A DNA stretch of 64,000 nucleotides from Roseovarius amoyensis (GTDB lineage: Bacteria > Pseudomonadota > Alphaproteobacteria > Rhodobacterales > Rhodobacteraceae). Position 1 is the first letter of the stretch, and every line of letters begins with the position of its first letter. Shown piece after piece: positions 52,591-56,257 of this stretch. A program made the translations under genes and the position numbers. Location of the stretch: contig NZ_QITQ01000014.1 in assembly GCF_003260265.1 (NCBI RefSeq), forward strand, positions 1-64,000, in the 5' to 3' direction. The notes below the pieces were generated by a model that was given only the letters and a program-made list of their open reading frames with translations, did not search any database and was not told where the DNA came from.

Positions 52591-55008
<2,418 letters not shown>

Positions 55009-55108
55009 GGCTGTTGTTCAGAATACGCCTAATATTCGGGCATCTGCGCTAAAATCGCCCTGATAATCCGGCATTTTGAATAACCTGCCAAGTCTGTTGG
55101 TGACTCTC

Positions 55109-55129
55109 CATTGCACTTACGCTGCAATG
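55109..55129. repeat. 7-bp inverted repeat upstream of the anti-SD hairpin RNA
   Basis: CATTGCA (55109-55115) and TGCAATG (55123-55129) are perfectly inverted around a 7-base loop. The element overlaps the candidate -35 box (TTGCAC 55111-55116) of the RNA locus, so it may be a regulator site or the end of the gyrB transcript. Confidence 0.45.
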
Positions 55130-55145
55130 CAGCATTCTGGTGTTA

Positions 55146-55240
55146 GACAGATCGCATGCACCTCCTCCTCCCTGTGCATGTGATCATGGTCAGAAGACGA
55201 CGGGCCGTATGCAACTCCTCCTCCCTTTGCATGCGGTCGC
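55146..55240 (+). ncRNA. CcsR/cuckoo-type small RNA: two hairpins with anti-Shine-Dalgarno loops
   Basis: Hairpin 1 pairs 55150-55161 with 55174-55185 (12 bp, one G-U); hairpin 2 pairs 55203-55214 with 55227-55238 (12 bp, two G-U). Both have exactly the same 12-nt loop, CTCCTCCTCCCT (55162-55173 and 55215-55226), while the stems differ by compensating changes. This is strong evidence of a selected RNA structure. The loop contains CCUCCUCCC, complementary to ribosome-binding sites, as in the CcsR RNAs of Rhodobacter and the cuckoo/alpha-r14 family. A weak promoter, TTGCAC (55111-55116) - 17 - ATTCTG (55134-55139), would start the RNA near 55146. The 3' end is uncertain. The locus may be one RNA or two processed RNAs. 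Confidence 0.8.
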
Positions 55241-55254
55241 GGTCGAGCCAACGG

Positions 55255-55277
55255 ACGCAGGTTCCATTCGCCTGCGT
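55255..55277 (+). other. Third hairpin downstream of the anti-SD pair
   Basis: A 7-bp perfect stem (55255-55261 with 55271-55277, loop TTCCATTCG) lies 16 bases after the second anti-SD hairpin. It may be the 3' hairpin of the small RNA. No T-run follows on the plus strand; on the minus strand it is preceded by TTTTTCTTC. Confidence 0.5.
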
Positions 55278-55300
55278 GCGAAGAAAAAGTCCAACAGGGC

Positions 55301-55328
55301 GTGGCTGGGCACAACGTTGCCCAGCCAC
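55301..55328. terminator. Strong 11-bp hairpin between gyrB/small RNA and ubiV
   Basis: A perfect 11-bp stem (55301-55311 with 55318-55328, loop 6 nt) lies 20 bp from the ubiV stop, where the transcripts converge. On the minus strand a TTTTTC run follows 12 bases later; on the plus strand ATTTCCTT follows. A bidirectional terminator is likely. Confidence 0.6.
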
Positions 55329-55348
55329 ATTTCCTTGGGGGCTCGCCC

Positions 55349-56257
55349 TCAGCCCGCCGCGCGACGCTGGATGTGGCGATAGCCGGCCTCGCCGTAGAAG
55401 AACCCGTTGCTGAAGCTCACGTCGGGGCAGCCCTGGCCAAGCTGCGCGCGCGCCTCTGCCGGTGCGATGCGCCCCGACAACACGGCGTCAAAGGCGTTGG
55501 CGACGGCGACCATGTCGACATCTTGCGGCAGCAGGCGGGCGTGGGTCACGCCCATGCCGCGCAACTCGTCCAGTTCGGCCAGCAGCTCGATATAGCTTTC
55601 GGACTGGGTCTGGATGCCGTTCACCCGCAGGATCGCAGTGCCGTCGCGGGTGGCCAGCGGCATGCCGTCGGGGTCGTCCTCGCAGACGAACTGGCAGTTG
55701 TCCTTGGTGCGGTTGTGGGCGCGGGCGTGATAGCAGCGCGCCGACACCGCCAGCGGCGCGCGGCCGAACACCTGCACCTCGACCCCCAGCCCCAATCCCT
55801 GCGCGGCCTTTGCCGCCAGTGCCACGGCGGTCGCCGGCATCTCGGTCGGCAGGCAGACATGCGTTGCGCCCTGGCCGGCCATCCAGGCGATGGTGGTCTC
55901 GTTATAGGCGTTCAGAAAGGGGCCAACCCGGTGCGGGCGCTTGCCCCGGGCATAAAGCCCGGCGGCATTGTTGATCTCGACCTCGAAATCATTGCTGTCG
56001 GCCAGGTCGGCGGTGGCCTGGCGTTCGCGGTTCAGCATCACCTCGGCCAGCGATGACACCACAACGCGCTTGCCGCCGCGCTGCAGGCGCTCGATCGCCT
56101 GCGGCATCTCGCGTTCAAAGAACGGCGCGCGCTTGGAACAGATCACCTCGCCCAGGTAGACGGTCGAAACCGGCGCCTCGTCTGCGATACGGGCGTAGAA
56201 ATCGAGCTTTTTCATCGCGCTCCAGTGATAGGCCACCGGGCCAAGGGTCAGCTCCAT
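55349..56257 (-). CDS. ubiV: UbiV, U32-family protein for O2-independent ubiquinone synthesis
   Basis: The 302-residue U32-family protein has the UbiV iron-sulphur cysteine pattern: Cys40 (GEVICSKR), then Cys175-x12-Cys188-x3-Cys192 (CYHARAHNRTKDNC, VCEDD). This spacing matches the [4Fe-4S] ligands known in E. coli UbiV. UbiU and UbiV together hydroxylate the quinone ring without oxygen, using prephenate as the hydroxyl donor. It follows ubiU by 4 bp and ends the ubiT-ubiU-ubiV operon. Older annotation as a protease is misleading. Confidence 0.93.
   Translation of the reverse strand: MELTLGPVAYHWSAMKKLDFYARIADEAPVSTVYLGEVICSKRAPFFEREMPQAIERLQRGGKRVVVSSLAEVMLNRERQATADLADSNDFEVEINNAAGLYARGKRPHRVGPFLNAYNETTIAWMAGQGATHVCLPTEMPATAVALAAKAAQGLGLGVEVQVFGRAPLAVSARCYHARAHNRTKDNCQFVCEDDPDGMPLATRDGTAILRVNGIQTQSESYIELLAELDELRGMGVTHARLLPQDVDMVAVANAFDAVLSGRIAPAEARAQLGQGCPDVSFSNGFFYGEAGYRHIQRRAAG

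Follow-up and report, generated by a model that had tools for sequence, protein, structure and literature searches.

In Roseovarius amoyensis, two tandem hairpins with identical anti-Shine-Dalgarno (anti-SD) loops lie downstream of gyrB, just behind a sequence that matches the operator of the PHB sensor PhaR. The genome contains two further loci with this combination of a PhaR-type site and anti-SD hairpins, and other genera have it too. On these grounds we lean, by a modest measure, towards the interpretation that the locus encodes an anti-SD small RNA (sRNA) that would be repressed by PhaR and released when PHB titrates PhaR. The window referred to below is the whole stretch of DNA that was analysed, 64 kb in length.

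A duplicated pair of hairpins between gyrB and ubiV

The sequence-only reading described two hairpins of 12 bp each, separated by 17 nt, with identical loops and with stems that differ by compensating changes, G-U pairs among them; both the hairpins and the pattern of changes are present as described (Table 1). The 12-nt loop, CUCCUCCUCCCU (also written CTCCTCCTCCCT), is the same in both copies. A pair-by-pair comparison of the two stems gave seven unchanged pairs, three one-sided changes (to G-U or U-G), two two-sided changes (U-A to C-G and C-G to A-U), and no broken pair. In a simulation, seven random stem substitutions kept all 12 pairs with P = 0.00045; the unchanged loop, taken alone, is only mildly unusual (0.04). 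Each hairpin lies within a repeat unit of 46 nt, present twice at 78% identity and a spacing of 53, and the pair is a diverged tandem duplication. The plus strand of positions 55140-55250 folds at -43.7 kcal/mol (z -3.6 relative to shuffles), and that of 55137-55335 reaches a z of -6.0, with further stems that lack the CCUCCUCCC motif predicted downstream of hairpin 2. The stretch originally singled out, 55109-55328, also takes in a terminator-like hairpin, which is the probable 3' end of the RNA; judged by spacing only, the 5' end would lie near 55146.

Table 1. Features of the hairpin locus, in coordinates of the window
Feature	Position	Strand	Basis and remarks
Hairpin 1	55150-55185	+	12 pairs; anti-SD loop at 55162-55173
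Hairpin 2	55203-55238	+	12 pairs; anti-SD loop at 55215-55226
Tandem unit, copy 1	55146-55191	+	Repeat search; comparison with free-standing loci
Tandem unit, copy 2	55199-55244	+	Repeat search; 78% identical to copy 1
Terminator-like hairpin	55301-55328	+	Terminator scan; 11 pairs, tail ATTTCC
Predicted PhaR operator	55118-55136	unspecified	Core CTGCAATGCAG at 55122-55132; 26.1 bits with the phaP-trained model
gyrB	52591-55008	+	Upstream neighbour; NCBIfam TIGR01059, 980.5 bits
ubiV	55349-56257	-	Convergent neighbour; NCBIfam NF047965, 360.4 bits

Nothing was found that favours the minus strand, on which the loops would be of the GGA type. The choice of strand bears on the idea that the locus is a sponge, its loops binding a GA-rich sRNA or the GGA loops of the opposite strand binding a CsrA-like protein. 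An interaction of the first kind is described in Caulobacter, where the sRNA CrfA pairs through a G/A-rich loop with the anti-SD motif of SisA-D, but in that case the anti-SD RNA is sponged and does not itself act as the sponge (PMC12559287). At our locus (551 nt scanned), the minus strand has a single promoter-like site, located past the hairpins and directed away from them, and a terminator-like site of the same strand separates the hairpins from ubiV. We consider a sponge very improbable, and the earlier suggestion that the locus sponges a regulator found no evidence in its favour.

The neighbours of the pair are gyrB, ubiV, and ubiU. The position directly after gyrB had been thought meaningful, and this did not survive comparison with relatives: CCTCCTCC is missing on the sense strand from all 29 gyrB 3' flanks of 500 nt in the genus (those returned as loci, from the 77 other genomes that matched; one of the 29 has it on the other strand) and from all eight ubiV 3' flanks on both strands, and we rejected a link to gyrB on this basis. 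The gyrB-to-ubiV query matched 78 of the 84 genus genomes, nearly always by its gyrB end. When the gap between the two genes was compared across the genus, as had been proposed, no convincing homologue of the intergenic DNA emerged from the 83 other genomes (best E 0.002, with at most eight candidates scored per genome), so long-term retention of this copy is without support. The adjacency of gyrB and ubiV (55008-55349) may itself be peculiar to this genome, ubiV being located away from gyrB in the eight genus genomes with a match to its 3' end.

No sigma-70-like promoter was found on the plus strand between 54900 and 55450, the TATCTT element of the relatives described below is not recognisable by eye, and there is no T-run behind hairpin 2, unlike in the free-standing relatives; together these suggest that the copy in the window may be weak, decaying, or weakly expressed. 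A sigma-54 site noted by eye near 55098-55115 was dropped, its GG-GC spacing being 12 instead of 10. An alternative is that the pair is a cuckoo element, duplicated or moved not long ago, that has fallen silent and into decay and was left behind when a rearrangement brought gyrB next to ubiV in the species. The missing intergenic homologues, the separate location of ubiV in eight relatives, and the want of a good -10 element by eye are all consistent with such a relic, which is nevertheless quite unlikely in our judgement, given that, through seven stem changes, none of the 12 pairs has been broken and neither loop altered, and that the PhaR-type site is intact as well.

A predicted PhaR operator and the three loop loci of the genome

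The predicted operator came out of exploration and ends 13 nt before hairpin 1. It was scored with a 19-nt model trained on phaP promoter sites only (consensus TGCTGCnnTGCAGCA; training sites range from 17.8 to 31.2 bits), and it is the best site in the window, the next place reaching 12.4 bits. Among 5000 Markov-generated stretches, each 142 nt long, the top score was 17.7 bits; when 100 Markov sequences as long as the window (64 kb) were scored, one reached the 26.1 bits of the site. Its core agrees with CTGCNNNGCAG, reported as the PhaR sequence of R. sphaeroides (PMC12542648), and with the phaP promoters of the genus, which likens the locus by sequence to the PhaR (AniA) regulon of PHB metabolism, although the promoter that such an operator should accompany was not located. 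Matches to the bare CTGCNNNGCAG consensus are no rarity in the window (two found versus 2.68 expected), and the operator was clearly found only by the phaP-trained model. Whole models of ccaF1 box A and box B (36-40 nt) were tried and set aside: box A had its top match, 7.2 bits, elsewhere and the site second at 6.0 (training median 49.9), and box B reached at best 2.6 bits in the window (training median 46.4).

PhaR is encoded in the genome (TIGR01848, 153.5 bits; PhaR, PhaC, and DUF1127 proteins were all identified by family models). By hand count, 14 places in the genome are palindromic with at most one mismatch, and sites that deviate from the consensus by no more than one mismatch lie at phaC (17.0 bits), an acetate-CoA ligase-like gene (27.9 bits), a phenylacetate-CoA ligase-like gene (29.7 bits), and a lysine-tRNA ligase gene (24.4 bits). 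Because equally strong sites occur beside ordinary genes, a strong PhaR-type site alone is no marker of a hairpin RNA. One of the ubiV flanks without a hairpin (L251) likewise has a PhaR-type site, of 16.7 bits.

The loop 12-mer occurs in five exact copies in the 3.8-Mb genome, all within three loci: two copies at this pair, two in a ccaF1-CcsR array, and one on the minus strand of contig C11, in the phaP 3'UTR. Each of the three has a PhaR-type site upstream, scoring 26.1, 19.6 (L266), and 30.8 bits, respectively. In the array (L004), four CCTCCTCCC hairpins come after a DUF1127 gene (Pfam PF06568). A cobalamin riboswitch lies near the array (L004:2086-2281, minus strand, C11, 118.8 bits).

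The score and the recurrence of the site bear on an account in which it is coincidental and a CcsR-like anti-SD RNA is processed from gyrB read-through. Read-through is possible, since the scan detected no intrinsic-terminator-like site between the gyrB stop and the hairpins; the want of a clear promoter agrees with it, and there is a precedent in CcsR1-4, which derive from the 3'UTR of ccaF1 (PMC8625941). A chance site, by contrast, would have to outscore the best of 5000 null stretches and to stand in front of anti-SD hairpins at two other loci of the same genome and in other genera. We therefore hold an RNA derived from the gyrB 3'UTR to be unlikely, and continue with the PhaR-repressed sRNA as the preferred interpretation.

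The phaP hairpin (L164:1403-1497, C11) sits between the phaP stop and the terminator, just before phaR. The phasin scores below the Pfam cut-off (Phasin_2, 20.5 versus 24.9 bits) and is so named also because of its place between phaC and phaR. Orthologues of phaP are present in all 84 genus genomes, and 50 of the 84 loci were covered. CCTCCC is found in a hairpin loop of the phaP 3'UTR in all 30 best-matching genomes (L164-L193), on stems that differ freely, and a script detected a CCUCCC-loop hairpin in 18 of 20 more distant ones, hand-picked from the list's lower half; two of the 18 are weak (the L226 loop is atypical and has CCTCC only, and the loop chosen in L224 is inside the terminator), and L231 and L235 gave none. 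A shuffle control gave 11 of 600. The phaP promoters of 29 out of the 30 loci contain CTGCNNNGCAG without a mismatch; 21 of these have two copies, whose starts are 26-29 nt apart. Elsewhere, in genome G455, the 5' leader of a phasin gene (L211) contains a CCTCCTCCC hairpin, preceded by two PhaR-type sites.

The phaR ribosome-binding region contains GGGAGG, which is complementary to CCUCCC, in 25 of the 28 loci where phaR was found, and pairing of the loop with the genome's own phaR ribosome-binding site (RBS) was calculated at -12.2 kcal/mol. Among 52 genes of the window, taking the best of several starts per gene, 10 have an RBS whose pairing with the loop is no weaker than -12 kcal/mol, and GGGAGG is absent from all RBSs selected in this way. 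Given that these genes pair as well, phaR is a good but not unique target candidate.

Relatives among CcsR, cuckoo and ar14 RNAs

Kinship to the CcsR, cuckoo, and alpha-r14 RNAs had been proposed from the motif in the loops, and it stands in a qualified form. The best match spanning both hairpins is Rfam ar14 (RF02344), at 32.5 bits against a gathering cut-off of 58.8, with an E of 2e-4 in a 471-nt search and of 4e-4 in the whole genome; a scan at gathering thresholds returned nothing, and RF02791 (CcsR/cuckoo) had no match up to E 10 in the 471-nt stretch. The genome's own CcsR array (L004) matches ar14 at 48.3 and 43 bits.

Like alpha-r14/NfeR1 of Sinorhizobium (RF02344), the locus displays the same anti-SD motif in identical loops on stems of different sequence. 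NfeR1 is described as having three hairpins, each with CCUCCUCCC in an unpaired region, as being controlled by LsrB and NtrC, and as silencing ntrB translation via these loops (PMC10746234), whereas our locus has two hairpins and a PhaR-type site. With the CcsR1-4/ccaF1 operon of Rhodobacter (RF02791; CIN1 locus, cuckoo RNA) it shares tandem hairpins, CCUCCUCCC in the loops, and unrelated stems; it differs in having only two hairpins and in not being placed for co-transcription behind a DUF1127 gene, the absence of which had been correctly noted (1.5 kb upstream in L076, the record of this locus). The promoter of CcsR is attributed to RpoHI/RpoHII (PMC10253847), and no such promoter was recognised here by a scan that used the sigma-70 consensus only. 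The MmgR/alpha-r8 family, which includes SisA-D in Caulobacter, also consists of anti-SD sRNAs, SisA acting via an anti-SD 10-mer, but its architecture is another one: the UUUCCUCCCU core is single-stranded beside a weak hairpin (PMC12559287), whereas the loop CUCCUCCUCCCU is closed by a stem. The MmgR promoter does hold an AniA/PhaR dyad; in S. meliloti, AniA/PhaR represses MmgR via this dyad, which lies between -35 and -10, and MmgR RNA lowers PHB (PMC8401924, PMC12542648). By sequence, our locus resembles a free-standing relative of the CcsR/cuckoo/ar14 RNAs, outside their membership thresholds.

Close pairs of the motif are common, occurring in 218 of the 295 genomes of the family sample. 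In a set of 61 loci (L004, L036-L065, L074-L103), a DUF1127-like ORF lies upstream in 52, as detected with a profile trained on members of the same set; the nine without it are L043, L052, L054, L056, L074, L075, L076 (this locus), L093, and L094. By eye, the promoter elements of L075, L093, and L094, which come from relatives in the genus, are intact, and this gives these loci the look of CcsR arrays from which the DUF1127 gene has been lost. When the phaP-trained model was run over the 520 nt upstream of each of 56 CcsR arrays (27 arrays of the family sample and 29 of the genus, our genome included), 53 had a PhaR-type site of at least 12 bits, versus one of 54 downstream controls. With the dropped rows restored (L038, L043, L054, L074, L076), the site is present in 56 of 61. 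The arrays without it are L045, L052, and L055 among the 56, joined by L054, which is probably coding by eye, and L074, which is low-complexity repeat DNA, among the 61. A further element of the array promoters is TTGTGCNNNNGCAGCA, which in most cases directly precedes TATCTT (47 matches upstream of 55 arrays).

Pairs without a DUF1127 gene also occur in other genera, the distance from the start of the PhaR-type site to that of the first CCTCCTCC being 39-80 nt; it is 39 nt in the window. In L194-L205, a T-run comes after the second hairpin by eye, so that this hairpin doubles as a terminator. One genome, G322, has four free-standing pairs (L197-L200) with PhaR-type sites and no DUF1127 gene between site and hairpins. 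A strict pattern of TTGTGCNNNNGCAGCA followed by CCTCCTCC matched nine loci in seven of 394 genomes, with no match in the reversed control, and it did not match the window. A generic pattern of CTGCNNNGCAG and CCTCCTCC matched 114 of the 394; by eye, most of these matches looked like chance, and many genomes matched the reversed control as well. From these generic matches 20 regions were picked by eye, of which 15 are pairs or arrays with the site just upstream. L209 and L212 have a single hairpin; in L206 and L207 the box is a chance match inside the phasin gene, while the hairpin is that of the phaP 3'UTR; and L211 is the locus with the hairpin in a phasin 5' leader. A scan of contigs for the window's own stem-loop gave one irrelevant match, in a Lachnospiraceae record (L073). 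Free-standing pairs in other genera, like the PhaR-type operator, the DUF1127-CcsR array of the same genome, and the third hairpin in the phaP 3'UTR, had no place in the sequence-only reading.

Proposed regulation by stored PHB

CcsR/cuckoo RNAs are known mainly as stress RNAs. The loop of the pair is similar to the anti-SD tail of 16S rRNA. In the model that we infer for the locus, a plus-strand sRNA of about 55146-55330, made of the two duplicated hairpins, would be transcribed from behind the operator. Its loops would mimic the 3' end of 16S rRNA, cover the SD sequences of target mRNAs, and lower their translation. PhaR bound at the operator would block transcription, and sequestration of PhaR by PHB granules would derepress the RNA together with phaP and the ccaF1-CcsR array. 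The phaR mRNA would be a likely target by virtue of the GGGAGG in its RBS, and its repression would reinforce derepression while PHB is stored.

Extended to the Rhodobacteraceae, the proposal is that the PHB sensor PhaR governs a set of anti-SD hairpins, comprising DUF1127-CcsR arrays, free-standing pairs, and the phasin 3'UTR, and so tunes translation, including that of phaR; we regard the chances of this broader claim as evenly balanced. Word searches of the open-licence literature found, among the matches listed, no paper that joins CcsR/cuckoo RNAs or the phaP 3'UTR hairpin with the PhaR regulon. Texts with both words, CcsR and PhaR, belong to other fields by title, and the excerpts of PMC10371769 have CcsR only beside 'Pharm' in the references.

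The input named for CcsR is the RpoH sigma factors (PMC10253847, PMC8625941). If the proposal is true, PhaR operators would supply CcsR/cuckoo RNAs with a new and testable input, the amount of stored polymer. An operator of their own would also explain the siting of such RNAs at odd places, for example behind gyrB. Should phaR mRNA be among the targets, the arrangement would form a compact feedback in a pathway that is used for bioplastic production.
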